A stretch of DNA of 64,000 nt from Verrucomicrobiia bacterium (GTDB lineage: Bacteria; Verrucomicrobiota; Verrucomicrobiia; Limisphaerales; JADLHS01). The notes beneath the pieces were generated by a model. That model worked only from the letters and a program-made list of their open reading frames with translations. It had not been told where the DNA came from and did no database searches. The position numbers were made by a program, and so were the translations under genes. Shown here in pieces: positions 14,845 to 46,197 of this stretch (its first letter is position 1; each line of letters begins with the position of its first letter). Location of the stretch: the NCBI GenBank assembly GCA_011525685.1, contig WYBW01000022.1, positions 248,001-312,000 of the forward strand, read 5' to 3'.

Positions 14845-15462
14845 TCACTTGGCTTCCGAGGACAGGGCTTTCTCCATCTTGTCCATTTCCTTGAGCGCGG
14901 CGTTCACCGCCTTGCTGACGAACTGGTGGTTCCAGTTGGCACTCTTGACCGTGCTCTTGATGGCCTTGACACCACCGGCGGTGACGTCAGTGGACAGGGC
15001 CTTCTGGATGTCACCCAGGTCGGACAGGAACGGCGCGAATTTCTCGCTCGCTACTTTCAGCGAGGCTTCAACCTTGTCGTAGCTGACTTTGACAGCGTCC
15101 AGCCGCTTCTGAGCCTTCTTGCGCAAGGACTCGTTCGCAATGCTATTGACGGTGCTTTGCCAGCTCTGGAAGTACTGCCGGCCGTCGCTGGCCATCCATT
15201 GGACGCGCGTCTTCGTCCAGCCCGCGGCGGATTCCGTCTTGGCCACTTCCGCACAGTAAGTGTTGTAGGCGGGCTTCAGATCACCCTGAGTCTGTTTGGT
15301 CAACGCGTTGAGCGCCTCGAGCGTGGCCTTGAGCTGGGCGTCGGTGCGGCTCGTTTCGGCTCGGGCGTCCTTGATGCTCCTGGCGAGTTGCTCCTGGCTG
15401 GCCTGGGCGGCCGTGGCCAGCAGGGTCGCGAGGCCGATGAGGATGCAGAGTTGTTTTTTCAT
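14845..15462 (-). CDS. DUF2959-like exported helical protein (paralogue 1)
   Basis: 205 residues. The ATG at 15462 begins a short signal peptide ending QAS. The mature protein is helical and charged, with many Lys/Glu/Ala heptad-like stretches, and resembles DUF2959. A paralogue at 25947-26564 is nearly identical along most of its length (for example SYDKVEAS and FLSDLGDIQKAL in both). The start region on the mRNA is A-rich with no Shine-Dalgarno, the same as for the paralogue. Function unknown; periplasmic location inferred from the leader. Confidence 0.65.
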   Translation of the reverse strand: MKKQLCILIGLATLLATAAQASQEQLARSIKDARAETSRTDAQLKATLEALNALTKQTQGDLKPAYNTYCAEVAKTESAAGWTKTRVQWMASDGRQYFQSWQSTVNSIANESLRKKAQKRLDAVKVSYDKVEASLKVASEKFAPFLSDLGDIQKALSTDVTAGGVKAIKSTVKSANWNHQFVSKAVNAALKEMDKMEKALSSEAK

Positions 15463-15588
15463 TTTCGTTGGTCCGTTCTTGTTGGTGTTGTTGTTTCTTG
15501 TTTGTTGCCGTCTCCACCGCCGATTCACTCGGGTCTGAAGATCAGCAAATCTGTTGGTCTTGGTTTCATTCGCAGACCGCCCGGTTCG

Positions 15589-23119: not shown

Positions 23120-23797
23120 CTAACGATAAAAAGGATTCCTGCCATTCGCGTGCTGGGTGACATCCCGAACTTCCCGAATCTCCGGGACCTTGTCCCGAAT
23201 GGAGGTCTCGATGCCGTTCTTCAAAGTGGAGTCTGCCATGCTGCATCCCTGGCAGCCACCGGTGAGTTCCAGGAAAACAACGCCGTCCCGGTAGTCAATC
23301 AACTCGGCGCCGCCGCCATGCGTGCCCAGCGACGGATTGACAACCTCATCAAGGACTTGCTGGACTTTCGCGGCGATGCGGCCATCGGGCGTGTCCGACT
23401 TGCGCAGGGGAGCCAGCACTTTCAACTCGCTGCCGATCAATCGAAACACGAAGTCAATGGTCGCACCTTCAAGATAAGGCGCGCTGTCCGGGGCGATGTA
23501 GAGATCGAGGCCCTCGAACGACTGGATGGAATCCGTCGGGGATTCCGGCTCCTCGGCCGGCACGAACCGCATGGAATAAGCCGCCCGCAGCGCCGAGCGC
23601 GGGATCGCATTCACCCTAAGCCCCTTGACCGGGAGTCCGAGGCTTTCCCTCTGCTCGCGAATATACTTCAGGGCGTTCTCGGTGATGGTGATTCTGGGCG
23701 TGCCGGGGCGGGAGTTTCCGGGTCCGGCGTGTCTGGGAGCCCGCTCACGGCCGGTGGATTCGGGACGGTCGGGGCGGGTTGGATATTGAGTCTGCAT
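23120..23797 (-). CDS. nfuA: NfuA-type Fe-S carrier (A-type-like domain plus NifU C-terminal domain)
   Basis: 225 residues in the NfuA layout: a degenerate HesB/IscA-like domain (~34-125) without cluster-binding cysteines, then a NifU-type thioredoxin-like domain (~140-215) with the cluster-binding C182-x-x-C185 in GGCQGCSMAD. NfuA carries [4Fe-4S] clusters to client enzymes in the cytoplasm. Its start codon overlaps the stop of the glycyl-radical activase gene (ATGA), an enzyme that needs several [4Fe-4S] clusters. Translational coupling with that activase implies it may supply clusters to this system rather than only general housekeeping. The first ~33 residues are Pro/Arg-rich and probably disordered. 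Confidence 0.9.
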   Translation of the reverse strand: MQTQYPTRPDRPESTGRERAPRHAGPGNSRPGTPRITITENALKYIREQRESLGLPVKGLRVNAIPRSALRAAYSMRFVPAEEPESPTDSIQSFEGLDLYIAPDSAPYLEGATIDFVFRLIGSELKVLAPLRKSDTPDGRIAAKVQQVLDEVVNPSLGTHGGGAELIDYRDGVVFLELTGGCQGCSMADSTLKNGIETSIRDKVPEIREVRDVTQHANGRNPFYR

Positions 23798-24780
23798 CAG
23801 ATGGATGTGGATGGTTCTTGTGAGGAAGACTTTCGTCCCGGGCTGCGCCCGAACGCCTCGTCAATGATCGCTCGCAACCGGGCGAGCGTTTCGGCGGCCG
23901 GCGGATTGAAATCCTGCATTTCGTAAACCTTGCCCAGAAACCCGTACTTGCTCTCACCGAAGCGCATGTAGGGCAGGAGTTCGTAATCCACCACGTTCTT
24001 GTGGGGTTTGATGAACTCCAAGGTTGCCCGAATGTGCTCTTCGTCGTCGTTCACGCCCGGGATCAGCGGCGTTCGCGCGATAAACTTCTTGTCGGGAAAA
24101 GTTTCGTAGGCGCGTTTGAGGTTCTCGCGGATGCGCTTATTGTCCACGCCGGTCCACTTCTTGTGACGCTCCGGATCGGTCAATTTGATGTCGTGGAGGT
24201 AGGTGTCCACATGCGGGAGAACCTTGGCCATGAACTCCCAGGGAACATTGCTTGCGGTTTCGATCGCGGTGTTGATGCCGCGCTGGTGGGCCCCGGCCAA
24301 CAACGCCGCGGCGAAATCCGCCTGAAGCTGGCACTCCCCGCCGCTGAGTGTGATGCCGCCGCCGGATTCGTGGTAAAAGCTGCTGTCCTGTTCGACCTCG
24401 TCGAGCACCTCATCCACCGTCATTTCCTTCCCGAACATGTAAAGCGCCTGGGGCGGACAGACGGGGACGCACTTGCCGCAGTTGGTGCAGAGATCCCAGT
24501 TGATGCGAACTTTGGTGTCGGAATCCACGTTGAAGATGGCCGACTCCGGACATTCTTTGAGGCAGAAACCGCACTGGTCCTTGCCGATGCACTTGCTCAG
24601 GTTGTAGCCCAATTCGGGCTTGGGGCTGATGCTCTCGGGATTGCTGCACCATTTGCAGCGCAGCGTACAACCCTTGAGAAAAACAGTCGTCCGCATTCCC
24701 GGCCCGTCGTGCGTGGAGAAATGCTGGATGTTCAGGACGATGCCCTTGGGAGCCGGTGTGGTTGGAGAAGAGTTTTCCAT
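23797..24780 (-). CDS. Glycyl-radical enzyme activating enzyme (radical SAM, two extra 4Fe-4S clusters)
   Basis: 327 residues. The radical-SAM motif CxxxCxxC is C38, C42, C45. A ferredoxin-type insertion follows, with eight cysteines in two clusters (C64/C70/C73/C77 and C98/C101/C104/C108), and the SAM-binding GGE segment is near 147-149 (TLSGGEC). This matches the activases of glycerol, choline, arylacetate and other non-PFL glycyl-radical enzymes. It abstracts hydrogen from the glycine of its partner; the partner here is almost certainly the enzyme at 31140-33686. GAGGTG six bases before the ATG is a clear ribosome site. The gene lies 9 bases downstream of the PFK-like gene and overlaps nfuA. 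Confidence 0.93.
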   Translation of the reverse strand: MENSSPTTPAPKGIVLNIQHFSTHDGPGMRTTVFLKGCTLRCKWCSNPESISPKPELGYNLSKCIGKDQCGFCLKECPESAIFNVDSDTKVRINWDLCTNCGKCVPVCPPQALYMFGKEMTVDEVLDEVEQDSSFYHESGGGITLSGGECQLQADFAAALLAGAHQRGINTAIETASNVPWEFMAKVLPHVDTYLHDIKLTDPERHKKWTGVDNKRIRENLKRAYETFPDKKFIARTPLIPGVNDDEEHIRATLEFIKPHKNVVDYELLPYMRFGESKYGFLGKVYEMQDFNPPAAETLARLRAIIDEAFGRSPGRKSSSQEPSTSI

Positions 24781-24789
24781 GGCGTCACC

Positions 24790-25941
24790 TCAATCTCCCA
24801 GAGCGATGCCGAGCGACCGCGCGGTCTGGACGAAGACGCTGTCAGCGGGCACGGTTCGGAACTTGTTGATGGCGTCCGCCAAGGGCACGAATTTCAAATC
24901 CGGCGGTTGGAAGGCCACCATCACGCCGGTTTGATTCTCATGGATCGCGCGCACGGCGGCGGCGCCGTAGGCAAGCCCAAGCTGCCGATCCACAGCCGTC
25001 GGCGCCCCGCCCTTGACCAACGGGCCCAAGGCAAGCGGGTAGGTCGCCTGATCGGTCAACCGTTGGAGTTTAAGAGCCACAGCCTGGGCCGCTTGACCGG
25101 ACGATTCGATGACGTGCGAGCCGCCTTCGCCGGTTGCCCCCGGAGAAAGCGAGGCTTTGAGAGAGTCTGGTGTCGCCGCCGCTCCGGCAGTTTGCTGTCC
25201 GTCTCGCGACCGCGCGCCCTCGGCGACCACCACCAGACCGGAAGTGCGTCCCGCCCGGAGTTTCTCCGTAAGCTTCGCGGCCACCTTCTGCAAGTCGTAG
25301 GGAATCTCCGGGATCAGCACCGCATCAGCGCACACGGCGGTGCCGGCTTGCAGGGCCAGCCATCCAGCGTGCTCGCCCAGGACTTCGACCACCCCGATTT
25401 TCCGCGCCGCCTGCGCCGCCTGGCGCACGCGGTCGAGCATGTCCACCGCAAAGCTCAGGGCGCTATTGAATCCGAACGAGAGTTGGGTCACGGCCACGTC
25501 GTTTTCCACGGAAGTCGGCACGCAAACCGTTTTGAGTCCCTGCCGGTGCAGCCGGAATAGAATGCTCAACGCCTGCGGGCCGACGACGGAAATGACCGCG
25601 TCAATTTTTTCGGCGGCGAGCTTGGCGATCAATTCACCGGAACGGTCCACTTCCTCGACCATGTTCTCGGGGTTCACCTGCCGGACGCGGAACGGATCCG
25701 TGCGGGTGGCGTTGCCCAGGATCGCGCCGCCGGTGGCGGAACTGTATTCGAGCAGTTGCGGAAAGAGTTCGAGCAGCCCGCCCTCGCGGTAGCGTTCCGG
25801 AAAGAGCAGCCCATCGAAGCCGTCGCGGATGCCGGCGACCTCCCACCCGAGTTCCTTCGCGGCGAGGACCACGCCGCTGACCACGGCGTTGATCCCCGGG
25901 ACATAGCCTCCGCCGCAATTAAGGGCGATGTGTCTTGTCAT
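24790..25941 (-). CDS. Phosphofructokinase-fold protein with altered active site
   Basis: 383 residues clearly homologous to group III PFK: the N-terminal loop reads GGGYVPGINAV (normally GGDCPGLNAV), then a PEIPYD strand, a KGGAPTAVDR segment where active PFKs have QRGGSPTPFDR, and the same C-terminal LGIALGD as the active PFK at 44720. The key sites are changed: GGDGS becomes VVGPQA (~119-124), PKTIDND becomes PTSVEND (~142-148, catalytic Asp replaced by Glu) and MGR becomes LGE (~188-190). Normal kinase activity is therefore unlikely. It could be a binding or regulatory protein, or have a new activity. It lies between a DUF2959-like gene (5 bases) and the activase gene (8 bases). The ATG at 25941 is preferred; a GTG at 25950 overlaps the upstream stop. 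Confidence 0.85.
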   Translation of the reverse strand: MTRHIALNCGGGYVPGINAVVSGVVLAAKELGWEVAGIRDGFDGLLFPERYREGGLLELFPQLLEYSSATGGAILGNATRTDPFRVRQVNPENMVEEVDRSGELIAKLAAEKIDAVISVVGPQALSILFRLHRQGLKTVCVPTSVENDVAVTQLSFGFNSALSFAVDMLDRVRQAAQAARKIGVVEVLGEHAGWLALQAGTAVCADAVLIPEIPYDLQKVAAKLTEKLRAGRTSGLVVVAEGARSRDGQQTAGAAATPDSLKASLSPGATGEGGSHVIESSGQAAQAVALKLQRLTDQATYPLALGPLVKGGAPTAVDRQLGLAYGAAAVRAIHENQTGVMVAFQPPDLKFVPLADAINKFRTVPADSVFVQTARSLGIALGD

Positions 25942-25946
25942 GGCGC

Positions 25947-26564
25947 TCACTTGGCTTCGGAGGACAGCGCTTTTTCCATCTTGTCCATTTCTTTGAGGGC
26001 GGACTTGACGGCCTTGTCCACAAACTGGTGATTCCAGTTGGCGCTGCTCACCGTGCTGTTGATTGCCTTCACGCCGCCAGCCGTCACATCCGTGGCGAGG
26101 GCTTTCTGGATGTCTCCCAGGTCGGAGAGGAAGGGCTTGAACTTTTCGCCAGCCAGCTTGAGCGACGCCTCCACCTTGTCGTAGCTGACTTTGACGGCGT
26201 CGAGGCGGTTCTGTGATTTCTTGCGCAGGGATTCATTGGCGATGCTGTTGACGGTGTTCTGCCAGTCTTGGAAGTACTTTCTGCCATCGGTAGCCATCCA
26301 TTGGATCCGCGTTTTCGTCCAGCCAGCGGCGGCCTCCGTTTTGGCGACTTCCGCACAATAAGCGTTGTAGGCAGGGCGAAGGTCGCCCGACTTCTGCGCG
26401 GTGAGCGCATTGATTGCGGCAAGCGTGGCCTTGAGCTGCGCGTCCGTCTGGCTCGTTTCCACCCGGGCCTCTTTGATGCTCCGCGCGAGTTGTTCCTGGC
26501 TGGCCTGCGTGGCGAATGTCAGCAGGGTGGCGAGGCCGATCATAACCATGGTTGTCTTTTTCAT
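25947..26564 (-). CDS. DUF2959-like exported helical protein (paralogue 2)
   Basis: 206 residues, start ATG at 26564 with an A-rich, Shine-Dalgarno-free leader. The signal peptide ends TQAS. The mature part is helical and charged and matches the paralogue at 14845-15462 over nearly its whole length, with mainly conservative changes, so the two arose by duplication. It sits inside the glycyl-radical gene cluster, between the BASS transporter and the PFK-like gene, whereas the other copy is in a stress/envelope block. Presence here may be accidental or may mark a periplasmic component of the system. DUF2959 assignment is moderate; function unknown. Confidence 0.65.
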   Translation of the reverse strand: MKKTTMVMIGLATLLTFATQASQEQLARSIKEARVETSQTDAQLKATLAAINALTAQKSGDLRPAYNAYCAEVAKTEAAAGWTKTRIQWMATDGRKYFQDWQNTVNSIANESLRKKSQNRLDAVKVSYDKVEASLKLAGEKFKPFLSDLGDIQKALATDVTAGGVKAINSTVSSANWNHQFVDKAVKSALKEMDKMEKALSSEAK

Positions 26565-26616: not shown

Positions 26617-27492
26617 TCAGGCAGTTGGCCTTGGCGCGCCGGCCGGAGCGCAAAAACGTCTGAGGATCGCGGCCGCGGCGAATCCGGAGAGAATGGCTCC
26701 CAGGAAGATTGCGAGGATGCACATCGTGGTCGCGCCCTGGGGCGCGCCGGCAACCCCCATCAACGTCGCCAAGGCCGGGCCGACGTTGCGCGTGCAGATG
26801 CCGAGGACCATCGGGGCTTTCTGGTCGTAGGAAAGTCCGAACCCGAGCAGATACGATGCGGCACCCAGCAGCGCGTAGTATAGGATTTGGGTGGCGATCG
26901 CATACGTGCCGACTGCGCTGAAGATCTCGCTCCGGTACACCCACAGCAGAACGGCGCACAGGATGAGGGTGTTCAAGCCGGTGATTTTCTTGACGACAGG
27001 GGCGGCCTTTTCCGCGCCGGATTCTGTGGCGCGGCGAATCCCCGCGCCGATGACCAGCGGCAGCGCAATGAAAAACAGGAGCGGCTTGGCGATGGTCCAG
27101 GGATCGGCAGTGAATCCCTTCGCCAACCACGGCACCATGAACGGCATCAGCACCACCGTTCCGGCGTAGGCCAGCAGCATGAAGGCCGACATGTAAGCCA
27201 GGCTCCCGCCGGATTTCCTCCGCATCACTGGAATCGCAGGAGAACAGGGCGCCATGCCCAGCAACACCAGGCCGAGGGCATAGGGTTCGGCCAGCGGAAT
27301 CAAGTTTGTGAGGAGCACGGCCAGGGCGGGACCGAAGACAAAACACCACAGCAACGTGAGCAGCACGAAACGCGCGTTGCGGAGAGCGGCGAGGGCTTCG
27401 GCCACATTGAGCCGCAGCCCCACCTCGAGCAGATTGCCCACCATGAAGATGACAATGGTGACCGATTGGATCTTGGCGAGGACTTGTTCCAT
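26617..27492 (-). CDS. BASS-family (bile acid:sodium symporter-like) transporter
   Basis: 291 residues with ~9-10 membrane segments in the BASS fold. Recognisable points are the N-terminal VGNLLEVGLRLN, the GMAPCSPAIPVM crossover region, which usually carries ion-binding residues, and GICTRNVGPALATL in the second half. BASS carriers import organic anions (bile acids, pyruvate, pantothenate, keto acids) with Na+. In this cluster it is the only transporter, so it likely brings in the substrate of the dehydratase/radical enzymes or exports a product (inference). The ATG at 27492 is 28 bases after the methyltransferase-like gene. Confidence 0.85.
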   Translation of the reverse strand: MEQVLAKIQSVTIVIFMVGNLLEVGLRLNVAEALAALRNARFVLLTLLWCFVFGPALAVLLTNLIPLAEPYALGLVLLGMAPCSPAIPVMRRKSGGSLAYMSAFMLLAYAGTVVLMPFMVPWLAKGFTADPWTIAKPLLFFIALPLVIGAGIRRATESGAEKAAPVVKKITGLNTLILCAVLLWVYRSEIFSAVGTYAIATQILYYALLGAASYLLGFGLSYDQKAPMVLGICTRNVGPALATLMGVAGAPQGATTMCILAIFLGAILSGFAAAAILRRFCAPAGAPRPTA

Positions 27493-27520
27493 GGTCTTGC
27501 GTCTCGGTGATAGTGACGGT

Positions 27521-28945
27521 CTAGGATCCTGAAGCGGCCCGCGTGAACACGGACCAATCCAGTTTTGACGCTCCGTTGGGTTCTCCACTCAAGCGCGGTC
27601 CGATCTTGATTCTGGACAACTCGACTTGGGGCGGCTTCTCCGCCTCCGGGTTGGTAAGGCCGAGGTGAATGAAATCTGCTTCTGACATGAAGGGTCTCGG
27701 GTCTGACCCCAACGCGCCTCCATAGGCATCTCTCGCATCATCCGTGAAGACCGGAATCCCCTTCAGGCCGCCCTCGGCTGGCAACCTCCGCAAGGCCTCC
27801 CGGATCGCGATACGAAGGGTCTCTTCCACAGGCAAGGCTCGGAAAAAGGTCATAAAGACATGCCTGATATATTGATGAACAAGGATTCGGTGATTCTTTT
27901 GACTCCACTCCGGGGAGCTCAGCTTCCTGCCGAGACATTCAATAAGACGGCTGGCTATCCGTTCCACTTCCGGCTTTAAGCGAATCTGTCGCCACGATCC
28001 CGAGCCGGGGACACGCTGCTGAACTTCAAGCTTCTTGGTATTGATCCACCTCACGCACTCACGCGTCTTCTGGGCGCCCTGTCCTTTGACCTGGAGAACT
28101 TCGATAAAAGCCGTCGCCACCTCATCCACCTGGACAATGACCATATCCCGCTCCTGCATATTGGTGGCAATCCTGTCGAGCTCACGGGCCTGCTCATCTT
28201 GCGGGTAATTATTCAGGACATTTCCCACAAACAGGACGTTCTGCCTGTCCGCGATCCTTTGAGGAACGTCTGTCTTCTGCAAGGTGATCCCGAATTTCGC
28301 GAGACCTGCTTCCAGCGGATATTTCTCCAGCTTGTATCCATTCCAAGAAGGGGCAGGCAGACTCGGATCCACCTCCCGCTTTCTTTCCGAGGCGATCCTT
28401 GCCTCGATTTCCGCCACCTCGGGGGCCAGCGCCGCATCCAACTGCGGGTTGGAAAACTCAACTTGTTCACCCGCGTACATGAATGTCCGGCCCATGAAAT
28501 ACGCCTCCCACACCTCATTGCCATGCAGGTGGTAAGAATAAGCAACGGAGGAGACCTTGCCGTTACGATCAACGACAAAATGCCAGTCCTTGACCTCGCA
28601 CGCAGCCCCCTTGGAAGAAAATATCGCGGATAAGCACCCACGGATCTTTTCCGCCCGGTCTCCCAGGAGGGTGACGTTCGCGTAAGGCACCGCCTCAACG
28701 CGCTCGGTGGCTACATAATCCACGTCCATCTCAAGGTCGTTTGCCAAAAGCGTTTTTAAGGCGGTCGCCACCTTGGCACGGGATGCGCCGACATCAATGA
28801 ACGCAAACTCACGGTCCAACAGAGCCAGCCCGTCCCGGACAGGATCTTGGGGATTCTGGAGATCCCACAGAAGGCTACCGATCCCAACATTCCGGTCGGG
28901 GATGATGTTGGTATCAACAAAGGGAACTGCGATCTGAGCCTTCAT
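27521..28945 (-). CDS. Putative SAM-dependent methyltransferase-fold protein, divergent
   Basis: 474 residues. I do not recognise a family. The N-terminal part has a methyltransferase-like strand-turn (FIDVGASRAKVATALK, ~47-62, a degenerate motif I) and a following acidic strand (DVDYVATERVEAVPYAN). The middle has NVLFVGNVLNNYPQDEQARELDRIA, resembling motifs IV-V of CheR-type enzymes. The C-terminal half is helical (EETLRIAIREALRRLP and following). Base composition looks less GC-rich than the neighbours, with more AT-ending codons, which may mean recent acquisition. It lies between aconitase X and BASS in the cluster with short gaps. A CheR-like or unrelated Rossmann protein is possible; this call is tentative. 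Confidence 0.45.
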   Translation of the reverse strand: MKAQIAVPFVDTNIIPDRNVGIGSLLWDLQNPQDPVRDGLALLDREFAFIDVGASRAKVATALKTLLANDLEMDVDYVATERVEAVPYANVTLLGDRAEKIRGCLSAIFSSKGAACEVKDWHFVVDRNGKVSSVAYSYHLHGNEVWEAYFMGRTFMYAGEQVEFSNPQLDAALAPEVAEIEARIASERKREVDPSLPAPSWNGYKLEKYPLEAGLAKFGITLQKTDVPQRIADRQNVLFVGNVLNNYPQDEQARELDRIATNMQERDMVIVQVDEVATAFIEVLQVKGQGAQKTRECVRWINTKKLEVQQRVPGSGSWRQIRLKPEVERIASRLIECLGRKLSSPEWSQKNHRILVHQYIRHVFMTFFRALPVEETLRIAIREALRRLPAEGGLKGIPVFTDDARDAYGGALGSDPRPFMSEADFIHLGLTNPEAEKPPQVELSRIKIGPRLSGEPNGASKLDWSVFTRAASGS

Positions 28946-28961
28946 GGAGTCGGGCGGATTC

Positions 28962-29009: not shown

Positions 29010-30500
29010 CTAGTCCACCATCGGTTTTTCCCCCTGATACAGAGGGCGTTCCTTTTCGCTGGCCAACCGTTCCTTGCGCGGTTTGCTCCAGTATTCCCAG
29101 CGCGCGGTTGGCGTGAACACGCCGGTCACGGCAGCGTTGACCAGGGCTTCCGGGTTGCCATAGATCCACTTCGGTCCGAAGCCGCCGCCCAGCTTCACGT
29201 ACTTGAAGCTGTCCGTGGCGATGACGGTGTCTTTCGGGTAGTGGCGAATCGGGGACATGGCGATGCAGGTCTGGTGGAAGATGTGGCCGCCCGCATCCTC
29301 GATGGTCTTGGTATCGCCGTAATGCTGGGCCATGAAGTAGGTCGGCGTGTCGGTCTGCACCCACAGCTTCACTCCCTTCTTCACCTTCTTGCCCTTCACC
29401 AGGCGCGCCACCTCGCGGACTTCATCCCAGGTCGCGTGCGGACACCCGAAGAAGACGATGTCCACCGGCTTCGCCTTTTCCGGACCGGGGGCCGGCGCGA
29501 TGGCGTTGAGATGGCGGTACATCTCGACGACGTCCTCCATCGTGACTTTATACCGTTCGGGTTTCCTGGGCATCTTACCCTTGAAGGCGGCTTCGAGTGT
29601 CGGGGACTCCGGCGTATAGCCCATCAGGTGCATCATCGGGTCGTTCATGCCGGGTGAGGCGCACGAGATCAGGTTCTTGGTCGCGCCCGGGCCCATCTTC
29701 TTGGGCAGGTTGAGCACGGCCATGATCCGGTTGCCGGCCTTCTCGGCAATGGCGGCACCCAGGGCGCCCCAATCCGCCATTCCCTTGATGTTGTCACGGA
29801 CCTCGTTAGTCAGCTCGACAATGCATTTGGCCGCGCGGAATTCGTCGAGGTGCGTGCCGTATTTGGGCAGGCAGCCGGTGTAAGCGCAATAAACCGTGTT
29901 GACGGCGGCTTCCCGGTTGGTCCGGGCGCCCAGGATGGTGTTGATGTAGCACGCGGCACTGGATTCCGAGCTGGCCGCGTATTCGCCCATCTTGGGGATG
30001 CGGGTGTTAAGGTAAGGATTGCACGAGAGCCAGGGGAGCCAGCCATGCTTCATGAGCATGTCGTAACCCGCCTGGAAGCCGGCGACCATTTCCTGGTCGA
30101 GCTTGAAGCTGCCCTTGCCCGGAATCTCGAAGTTCCAAGGTTTGCCGTTCGGCGGTCCCAAAATCTCCTTGGCTTTGTCCAACTGCATCATGTACGGATC
30201 GTTTCCGCACTGGGTGCCGGACTCGTCGGCGACGTGCGCATCCTTCATCGCGAAAATCGGATCGTAGAGCGGGCTGTGTCCCAGGTCGTATTCATTGAGC
30301 TTCTTTAATCTCTCCGGCTGCATGCGGTCCTTCACGTAGATGGGGCAGCAGTTGAGCGTGAGGACAAGATCCACCATTTCCGTGGCCTCGACCGCTTTGC
30401 CGAAGTCCAAGAGTTTGTCCATGCAGAACTGCTTGGCTTCGCCATGCTTGCCATCCAGCATTTCCTGTTGGAGCTTTGTAAGTTTCATTTTCTTTTTCAT
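29010..30500 (-). CDS. Aconitase X large (catalytic) subunit
   Basis: 496 residues matching the AcnX (former DUF521) family: the block ESSAACYINTILGARTNRE (~179-197), the preceding SCNPYL with Cys 160, and the later FFGCPHATWDEV segment are family hallmarks. Known AcnX enzymes are cis-3-hydroxy-L-proline dehydratases in bacteria and phosphomevalonate dehydratase in archaea; they use an Fe-S cluster and eliminate water. Usual large subunits are ~400 residues, so this one is long (extra N-terminal ~60 residues). The small subunit is encoded 37 bases upstream. Substrate here is not predictable from sequence. The start has an A-rich leader and no Shine-Dalgarno; an ATG at 30488 is an alternative. 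Confidence 0.9.
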   Translation of the reverse strand: MKKKMKLTKLQQEMLDGKHGEAKQFCMDKLLDFGKAVEATEMVDLVLTLNCCPIYVKDRMQPERLKKLNEYDLGHSPLYDPIFAMKDAHVADESGTQCGNDPYMMQLDKAKEILGPPNGKPWNFEIPGKGSFKLDQEMVAGFQAGYDMLMKHGWLPWLSCNPYLNTRIPKMGEYAASSESSAACYINTILGARTNREAAVNTVYCAYTGCLPKYGTHLDEFRAAKCIVELTNEVRDNIKGMADWGALGAAIAEKAGNRIMAVLNLPKKMGPGATKNLISCASPGMNDPMMHLMGYTPESPTLEAAFKGKMPRKPERYKVTMEDVVEMYRHLNAIAPAPGPEKAKPVDIVFFGCPHATWDEVREVARLVKGKKVKKGVKLWVQTDTPTYFMAQHYGDTKTIEDAGGHIFHQTCIAMSPIRHYPKDTVIATDSFKYVKLGGGFGPKWIYGNPEALVNAAVTGVFTPTARWEYWSKPRKERLASEKERPLYQGEKPMVD

Positions 30501-44719: not shown

Positions 44720-45802
44720 TCAATCTCCCAGCGAAATGCCCAGCGCGCGGGCGGTCTTGACCAGATTGCCGTCCGGTCCAACCGTCTTCAGCCGTCCGAC
44801 GGCCTCGCTGATGTTCACCGCGCCCACTTGCGCGCCCTGCCAGCCGACCATTTTTCCAAAGTCGCGGGCAGCCACCAATTCCACCGCATGCGCGCCAAAG
44901 ACCGAGCAAAGCGTCCGATCAAAGGGCGTCGGCGAACCGCCCCGCTGCAAGTGGCCCAGCACACAGACGCGCGTTTCCTTGCCGGTGCGTTTCTCAATTT
45001 GAGATGCGACCACGGCACCCATGCCACCCAGTCTGGCCTCGCGATTCTTTTCCGGCCCGGCCGAGGTGACAAACCCCCCGCCTTTCTCTCTCGCGCCTTC
45101 TGCCACGACGATGAGCGTGAATTTCCTTCCCTGACGTTCGCGCTCCCGGATTTTGGCCGCCACACTCTGGTAGTTGAACGGGATTTCCGGAATCAAAATC
45201 ACGTCCGCGCCGCCGGCCACGCCCGCGAACAGCGCGATCCAGCCGGCGTAACGGCCCATCACTTCCAGCACCATCACGCGGTTGTGGCTTTCCGCGGTCG
45301 TGTGCAGCCGGTCCAGCGCATCGGTGGCGCACGCCACCGCGGAGTCGAACCCGAAGGTGAACATCGTGCCTTCAAGGTCGTTATCAATCGTCTTGGGCAC
45401 CCCCACGATCGGGATGCCATGCTCGAACAATTGTTGCGCAATGCTCAACGAGCCGTCGCCGCCCACCGACACGAGACCGCGAAGTTTCAAGGCTTTGAAT
45501 CCACGCTTCGTTTCATCCAACAGCTTCTTCGGCAGGCCGCGCGATTCGCCGTGGCCGGTCTTGGCGGAGAATTTACCGCGATTGGCCGTGCCGAGGATCG
45601 TGCCGCCGCGCAGCAGCAAACCGCTGATGGCCGTGTAATCCAGCCGCACGTAGCGGCGCGGTTGGAGCAGGCCCTCGTAACCGCCAAGAAACCCGAGCGT
45701 TTCCCAACCGCGCCGGGCGGCGGCCTTGGCCACCGCGCGAATGACCGCGTTCAAGCCGGGGCAATCACCCCCGCCCGTGACAATTCCAATTCGTGAGTTC
45801 AT
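44720..45802 (-). CDS. pfkA: ATP-dependent 6-phosphofructokinase (group III)
   Basis: 360 residues from the ATG at 45802 (the region upstream in frame is not PFK-like). Motifs: GGGDCPGLNAVIR at the N-terminus, GGDGS at 114-118, PKTIDND at 136-142 with catalytic Asp 140, MGRYAG at 182-187 and HLQRGGSPTPFDR. Gly in GGDG indicates ATP as donor. This is the fully equipped PFK of the glycolytic block (followed by ldhA and pyk). It is also the closest relative in this window of the inactive-looking PFK homologue at 24790. Confidence 0.95.
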   Translation of the reverse strand: MNSRIGIVTGGGDCPGLNAVIRAVAKAAARRGWETLGFLGGYEGLLQPRRYVRLDYTAISGLLLRGGTILGTANRGKFSAKTGHGESRGLPKKLLDETKRGFKALKLRGLVSVGGDGSLSIAQQLFEHGIPIVGVPKTIDNDLEGTMFTFGFDSAVACATDALDRLHTTAESHNRVMVLEVMGRYAGWIALFAGVAGGADVILIPEIPFNYQSVAAKIRERERQGRKFTLIVVAEGAREKGGGFVTSAGPEKNREARLGGMGAVVASQIEKRTGKETRVCVLGHLQRGGSPTPFDRTLCSVFGAHAVELVAARDFGKMVGWQGAQVGAVNISEAVGRLKTVGPDGNLVKTARALGISLGD

Positions 45803-45828
45803 GAGTTTCTTCCCATCAAGCGCCGGCC

Positions 45829-46197
45829 TCAAGTTGCGGGTTCGGCCAGCCAGGCCCGCGCTCTGGCGACATCGGCCGGCGGAAAGTATTCGATCGGGAA
45901 TCTGCGCAAACCCTTTGAGGCAAAGACGAGCGCGAGATCTTCCCACTGCCGGTCCCCCACGATGGCCATCTTCTCGATCAGGTCGTCGTACTTCATGGAA
46001 AACGACAGGTCACCCCAATCGCCGCCGCGCTGCCAACCCTCGAAATTCTCCGCCACGACCAGCAGACGCGCCCTGCCCTGCTGTTGAATAAGATCACCCA
46101 CCATTCCCTGCAGCGCGGCCAGTTCCGGTTGAGTCAACTTGCCGGCGATTCTGGCGGTAATGATGCCGCCGGACGTGTCAGTAATTTCAGCGCTCAT
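45829..46197 (-). CDS. STAS/SpoIIAA-like domain protein
   Basis: 122 residues of the SpoIIAA-like STAS/SEC14-type family (DUF3478). The segment LLVVAENFEGWQRGGDWGDLSFSMKY and the C-terminal RRFPIEYFPPADVARARAWLAE are characteristic. The usual phosphorylated Ser of anti-sigma antagonists is not evident. Its role is unknown; proteins of this group bind lipid-like molecules or regulate partners. It is the first gene of the PFK-ldhA-pyk-glgP run, 26 bases upstream of the PFK gene. Confidence 0.75.
   Translation of the reverse strand: MSAEITDTSGGIITARIAGKLTQPELAALQGMVGDLIQQQGRARLLVVAENFEGWQRGGDWGDLSFSMKYDDLIEKMAIVGDRQWEDLALVFASKGLRRFPIEYFPPADVARARAWLAEPAT

Follow-up and report, generated by a model that had tools for sequence, protein, structure and literature searches.

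Why would a relative of a glycolytic kinase, with its catalytic motifs replaced, be encoded beside the radical SAM activase of a glycyl radical enzyme (GRE)? The question is raised by a PFK-like gene in the 64,000-nucleotide stretch of contig WYBW01000022.1 (Verrucomicrobiia bacterium, assembly GCA_011525685.1) that was analysed here (hereafter the window). We address it through the residues, predicted fold, selection and gene neighborhood of the protein and its relatives.

The PFK-like gene and its cluster

The PFK-like gene lies on the minus strand, with an ATG at 25941 (a second possible start is a GTG at 25950), a stop codon ending at 24790, and no internal stops. Its product matches Pfam PFK (PF00365) at 216.5 bits (cut-off 30.9) and scores below the cut-offs of two curated models (TIGR02483, 252 vs 430.6 bits; NF002872, 232 vs 253 bits). 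Residues 3–383 align with the canonical PFK of the window (44720–45853, minus strand) at 40% identity (E 2.5e-61). Both the clean frame and the end-to-end alignment claimed in the original prediction are thus confirmed.

Besides the PFK-like gene and its paralog, the six PF00365 genes identified in the genome comprise two ordinary PFKs like that at 44720, one at 910–1833 of the window, and one on another contig. The paralog (64% identity) belongs to a second cluster 46 kb away (locus L043; G000:C176:218000–237999), together with an activase and a GRE of a different kind (GRE2), and shows the same motif losses. The DUF2959 gene of that cluster is 79.5% identical to its counterpart in the cluster of the window. 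The window itself has two DUF2959 paralogs 11 kb apart (14845–15528 and 25947–26564).

The cluster of the window begins with a GRE gene (GRE1; 33686–31140), followed in order by genes for AcnX, a protein of no known family, a BASS transporter, a DUF2959 protein, the PFK-like protein, the activase, and an NfuA-like protein (Table 1). The PFK-like gene has the neighbors originally described: the DUF2959 gene, with its stop at 25947, ends 5 bases before it, and the activase gene, with its ATG at 24780, begins 9 bp after the PFK-like stop codon. The NfuA-like gene in turn shares one base with the activase gene.

Table 1. Genes of the GRE cluster and the reference PFK, with window coordinates.
Feature	Position	Strand	Basis
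PFK-fold protein without kinase residues, 383 aa	24790..25941	minus	ORF, Pfam PFK, residue mapping, AlphaFold model
GRE activase (radical SAM), HpsH-like	23797..24780	minus	TIGR02494 349 bits, above cut-off 174; HpsH 392.5 vs cut-off 430
NfuA-like Fe-S carrier	23120..23797	minus	Pfam NifU 80.6, above cut-off 27; TIGR03341 129, below cut-off 269
DUF2959 protein, directly upstream of PFK-like gene	25947..26564	minus	Pfam DUF2959 68.5 bits, above cut-off
BASS-type transporter	26617..27588	minus	Pfam SBF 62.4 bits, above cut-off
476-aa protein, no known family	27521..28951	minus	no match in Pfam or NCBIfam
Aconitase-X family protein	29010..30500	minus	Pfam AcnX 295.7 bits
GRE1, HpsG/IslA-like glycyl radical enzyme, 848 aa	31140..33686	minus	HpsG 998.4 bits vs cut-off 1000
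Ordinary PFK of the same genome (reference)	44720..45853	minus	NF002872 385.6 bits, above cut-off 253; GGDGS, TIDND, MGR intact

A distinct clade of PFK paralogs

When 84,980 species genomes were scanned with a profile of eight members, 106 relatives were found and 80 loci kept. These split without intermediates into 32 loci with 52–82% identity in which the losses are present (hereafter clade loci) and 48 canonical PFKs with 46% identity or less. All 32 clade loci lack GGDGS, MGR and the substrate His. In a PFK tree, from which three fragments (L071, L074, L075) and a duplicate row (L073b) were left out, the clade is separated from 50 canonical rows with support of 100/100.

The clade spans about a dozen named phyla (Verrucomicrobiota, Planctomycetota, Acidobacteriota, Myxococcota, Thermodesulfobacteriota, Cyanobacteriota, Pseudomonadota, Bacteroidota, Ignavibacteriota, Balneolota, Hydrogenedentes, and Aminicenantes), assigned mostly by MAG labels, any single one of which may reflect a misbinned contig. 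The cyanobacterial members include Elainella saxicola and Phormidium sp. LEGE 05292, and others occur in Methylobacter and Xanthobacteraceae. Within any one group the clade is rare: it was found in 7 of 146 genomes at the level of the order of the window and below, 3 of 384 for the class, and 1 of 387 for the phylum, these being different samples; the single genome in the phylum sample is that of the window. GRE activases (E 1e-60 or better) were detected in 80 of these 387 genomes, those of the other genomes having 48% identity or less among the matches listed. In a tblastn search for relatives on plasmids, the best 15 of 75 records were PFKs with 35% identity or less.

Catalytic residues lost and retained

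Residue numbers follow E. coli PfkA. Compared with the canonical motifs, the PFK-like protein of the window has SVVGPQALS for SVGGDGSLS, SVEND for TIDND, and VLGE for VMGR, and alignment with the canonical PFK of the window bears out the claim that all three catalytic motifs are replaced. The losses go beyond the three motifs, comprising D12 (Tyr), D103 (Pro), G104 (Gln), S105 (Ala), and D127 (Glu), with further changes at R162 (Lys), R171 (Glu), R243 (Tyr), H249 (Pro), and R252 (Lys); N128, D129, and E222 are unchanged.

The same sites were compared across 35 rows (the protein of the window, its paralog, the 32 clade loci, and the second copy in L067; three of the loci are fragments). The Mg-ATP site (D12, D103, G104, S105) is replaced in every row that covers it: D12 by Tyr or Phe in 32 of the 33 covering rows, G104 mostly by Gln or Arg, and S105 by Gly, Ala, or Glu, while T125 is Ser or Ala. 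GGDGS has not been regained in any of the 35 sequences. The catalytic D127 is Glu in 33/35 rows, including that of the window, so that the change from Asp to Glu stated in the original prediction holds for all except two relatives, which keep Asp. Among the F6P contacts, R171 and H249 are absent in 35/35 rows and R243 is replaced in at least 34/35, with mostly Tyr or Phe at the R243 position and mostly Pro or Gln at the H249 position. All of these catalytic residues are present in the 50 canonical rows (50/50). Four pocket residues are conserved within the clade (E146, D148, E241, K/R310), and the effector-site residues give no clear signal, the nearest canonical PFKs also being variable there. 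The Mg-ATP site is therefore erased and the sugar-phosphate site partly so, with a carboxylate remaining at the base position.

The protein might still be a phosphotransferase that uses another donor (PPi or another nucleotide) or works in the reverse direction, which would fit the retention of N128 and D129 (34/35 each), E222 (31/35), Arg or Lys at R252 (35/35), and a Glu or Asp base at D127 (35/35). Against this, D12, D103, G104, S105, R171, R243, and H249 are lost, and the replacements at D103, G104, and R171 differ from member to member within the clade, which is unlike a new phosphoryl site. Known PPi-PFKs retain the first Asp of GGDD. We consider continued phosphotransfer quite improbable, and the original suggestion of an enzyme with a different phosphoryl chemistry fares poorly, given the erasure of the Mg-nucleotide residues and these variable replacements.

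Predicted fold and selection

An AlphaFold model of the PFK-like protein reached a pLDDT of 85.4 and a pTM of 0.83, and superposed on 3pfk over 318 residues at 2.2 Å (Z 36.5); its alignment of 66 sequences included 35 canonical PFKs (35 of the 48 canonical loci), which biases it towards the PFK fold. An earlier model from 31 clade members alone also had PFKs as its top match (E 6.6e-24), with a pLDDT of 75, a TM of about 0.45, and poor domain placement. Structure comparison of the PFK-like model (VIA-align 2) gave no non-PFK rows above Z 9.1.

The loss of several catalytic residues might suggest a decaying paralog that hitchhikes in the cluster. However, NG86 dN/dS of the PFK-like gene is 0.06–0.19 in 10/10 pairs, which argues that the gene is not decaying (0.04–0.12 for the activase in the same pairs; 0.03–0.19 for five canonical PFK pairs), and the frames are clean, the clade extends across its many phyla, and the place by the activase is fixed. 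Decay is hardly credible on these grounds, and was ruled out by dN/dS and conservation. The original view of a new role rather than decay is upheld by the single clade, the complete absence of GGDGS, and this dN/dS range.

Pairing with a GRE activase

In tblastn searches with the activase of the window and two GREs, an activase was found on the contig in 29/32 clade loci and a GRE in 27/32, compared with 0/48 canonical PFK loci for either; chance neighborhood was ruled out by this difference for the activase. L070, a 3.8-kb contig, is the only clade locus with neither gene, and in L071 and L075 the contig ends directly after or inside the PFK-like gene. The activase start, as projected from the activase of the window, lies between –10 and +23 bp from the PFK-like stop in 27/32 clade loci; outside these are L053, with a gap of –164 from a match that is partial and lies where the contig ends, and L073, for which the gap was taken from its second PFK-like copy. 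Second copies occur in two clusters (L067:13303–14448 and L073:10001–11170), each beside a gene for a 4Fe-4S protein and not beside the activase; the first copy in L073 is broken across two frames.

The pairing involves one clade of activases. Among the 146 genomes, seven activases with 65–100% identity (in six genomes) all adjoin a PFK-like gene, which was found near none of 16 activases with 44% identity or less and none of 13 other GRE loci. Relatives of GRE1 or GRE2 with more than 88% identity are present in six of the 146 genomes, all six of which have the PFK-like gene; the seventh genome with a PFK-like gene (G142) is the source of the 3.8-kb contig L070. For 18 of 34 loci, those with complete proteins, PFK-like protein distances correlate with activase distances at r=0.84 (maximum over 2000 permutations, 0.38) and with GRE distances at r=0.70. 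The 27 linked activases form one clade (100/100), set off by a branch length of 1.46 changes per column.

The activase of the window exceeds the cut-off of TIGR02494, and the CX3CX2C cysteines (Cys 38, 42, and 45) are present in 27/27 linked activases. Many linked activases lack some of the eight ferredoxin-type cysteines: three columns hold Cys in just 12, 9, and 12 of the 27 sequences, compared with 16, 15, and 16 of 16 other activases, although the activase of the window retains all eight. A putative SAM synthetase gene, identified by eye from the start of its sequence, is present in 3/32 loci (L057, L060, and L061). Together with the Fe-S carrier gene behind the activase of the window, the Cys losses and the SAM synthetase are hints, not proof, of an activation module.

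Two GREs with one PFK-like/activase pair

Two kinds of GRE recur in the clade clusters: GRE1 (59–95% identical to that of the window) and GRE2 (73–96% identical to that of L043). A third kind, 42–44% identical to GRE1, is encoded at two Desulfobacteraceae loci of one MAG. GRE1 matches IslA at 801 bits and PDB entry 6lon at 771 bits, and narrowly misses the curated cut-off of HpsG (NF048011). At IslA positions, R189, R678, C468, and E470 (of the CxE motif) are kept in GRE1, with Asn for Q193 and His for W374; the sulfonate ligands of IslA are R189, Q193, and R678 (PMC8473560). GRE2 is best matched by the HypD model (496 bits; HpsG, 413 bits). Its motif reads CVG, with Gly at the position of the CxE glutamate, in 12/12 sequences compared, and GRE2 lacks the two arginines of GRE1. 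The relation between GRE1 and GRE2 was judged from family scores, the GRE tree having held too few groups for sister relations. Genes for SsuA-like, rhodanese, and CoA-disulfide-reductase-like proteins and a SulP transporter were observed near several copies of GRE2 (L062:6625–8970 and 11 further loci). A separate GRE1 gene of 94% identity (L165; G095:C668) comes from a MAG in which it is divided between contigs, and the search reported a stop in it; no PFK-like gene was seen on its 5.2-kb contig.

HpsH is the best model for two GRE2-linked activases (350 and 344 bits), as for the activase of the window. When GRE1-type clusters are compared with GRE2-type ones, the PFK-like proteins are on average 59% identical and the activases 65.5%, against 30.5% for the GREs. 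GRE2-linked PFK-like rows are nested inside GRE1-linked ones in the PFK tree; in the activase tree the same nesting has support of only 80/91. On a plain reading, the GRE would have been exchanged while the PFK-like/activase pair stayed together, and its retention suggests that the pair serves GRE activation and not a single substrate pathway. The link to the pathway originally proposed from gene position is thus sustained as regards the radical-enzyme cluster; the tie is to the activase, whatever the GRE, and not to one pathway.

These data also bear on a partner of the GRE itself, such as a chaperone, a spare-part subunit, or a subunit for oxygen protection, in place of a partner of the activase. 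The presence of a GRE in 27/32 loci and the correlation with GRE distances would agree with such a role, as would the members in cyanobacteria, Methylobacter, and Xanthobacteraceae, which are known as mostly oxic groups. It is nonetheless very doubtful: the PFK-like protein remains 59% identical across GREs of 30% identity, and the activase tracks it better (r=0.84 vs 0.70).

Alternatively, the protein may be a substrate-pathway enzyme with a new chemistry, acting before or after the GRE on, for example, a sulfonated sugar or its breakdown product. Both sulfonate-binding arginines of IslA are conserved in GRE1; genes for an SsuA-like protein, a rhodanese, a SulP transporter, and a sulfatase are located close to several GRE clusters; the D127 position has a carboxylate throughout; and a PfkA-family sulfofructose kinase, SqiK, has been described (PMC9594981). 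This alternative seems to us somewhat unlikely, as one protein accompanies two GREs with differing active sites (CxE with two arginines vs CVG without them) and the metabolic neighbors vary by cluster. The commonest families after the PFK-like protein, GRE, and activase are BASS transporters (11/34 loci) and an SDR dehydrogenase (8/34), as lower bounds from greedy gene calls that include some antisense ORFs. AcnX is encoded in 4/32 clade loci besides the window, in only some GRE1-type clusters, and relatives of the 476-aa protein of no known family in a few AcnX-type clusters (L044, over 33 residues only, L045, L051, and L165).

A proposed non-catalytic partner of the activase

Judged from sequence, this kinase relative without catalytic residues is a conserved partner gene of a GRE activase in many bacterial phyla. 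The interpretation that fits best, to which we give an even chance, is that of a PFK-derived, non-catalytic partner of the HpsH-like activase that acts on GRE activation. Its computed basis comprises the loss of kinase residues and the pairing with the activase clade, both well supported, as well as the intact predicted fold, purifying selection, and retention of the pair across GREs. We infer from these that the protein does not phosphorylate, that it contacts the activase, and that it controls activation.

The kinase residues would have been lost once, in the ancestor of one clade of PFK paralogs. The paralog would then have come to serve an HpsH-like GRE activase as its dedicated partner, with the PFK fold retained and the Mg-ATP site given up. 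The PFK-like protein may bind to the activase, or else to the GRE in the state with an open glycyl loop; such binding could gate, stabilize, or time radical installation, perhaps with a small ligand sensed in the altered pocket.

Several observations run counter to a non-catalytic activase partner. In L067 and L073 there are second copies away from the activase, and L070 has no activase nearby; the conserved E146, D148, E241, and K/R310 leave room for catalysis; the correlation with the GRE would also fit a GRE partnership; and the nesting of GRE2 within GRE1 in the activase tree is only modestly supported. Moreover, GREs of the same family have been activated in vitro with no such protein added, as reported for IslA/IslB (PMC8473560) and IseG/IseH (PMC6453916).

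In a bolder version of an activation role, the PFK-like protein would be a third component of GRE activation. Its former ATP pocket would hold another ligand, either a metabolite signal or an adenosyl compound such as SAM or 5'-deoxyadenosine, and the protein would license radical installation, perhaps so that activation works in oxygen-exposed organisms. The Cys losses of the linked activases and the SAM synthetase gene in a few loci are in line with this version, which we regard as rather unlikely.

Comparison with known systems

The accepted GRE system consists of the enzyme and its radical SAM activase, and a conserved third gene, derived from a glycolytic kinase and retained through a change of GRE, suggests an added layer of control or help; such a layer of activation is not described in the papers searched. 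The PFK-like gene is likewise undescribed in the literature searched on GREs and phosphofructokinase, GRE neighborhoods, GREs in cyanobacteria, inactive PFKs, and SqiK, which covered few subscription papers. It also serves as a marker for two types of GRE in cyanobacteria and other organisms; one of these types lacks the CxE glutamate.

An extra conserved gene of uncertain function is also known from the GRE operons of benzylsuccinate synthase, the product of which, BssE, is described as an AAA+ “putative chaperone” (PMC7285207) and belongs to an unrelated protein family. SqiK is likewise a PfkA-family member associated with sulfonate metabolism, but it is described as an active kinase of the sulfo-EMP2 pathway (PMC9594981), whereas the PFK-like protein lacks the Mg-ATP site.

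The PFK-like protein is predicted to have the fold of PfkA (PF00365; mixed-donor subfamily TIGR02483) from end to end (Z 36.5 with 3pfk). It differs from PfkA in that the residues of the Mg-ATP site, the catalytic Asp, and the majority of the F6P contacts are replaced. HpsG and HpsH, the DHPS GRE and its activating enzyme (NF048011 and NF048010), are the closest curated models of GRE1 and the activase of the window, both of which score just under the respective cut-offs (998 of 1000 and 392 of 430). Eukaryotic PFK paralogs have turned regulatory, as in the C-terminal half of animal and yeast PFK and the alpha subunit of plant PFP. These non-catalytic halves and subunits regulate another PFK, whereas the partner gene of the PFK-like protein encodes a radical SAM activase.
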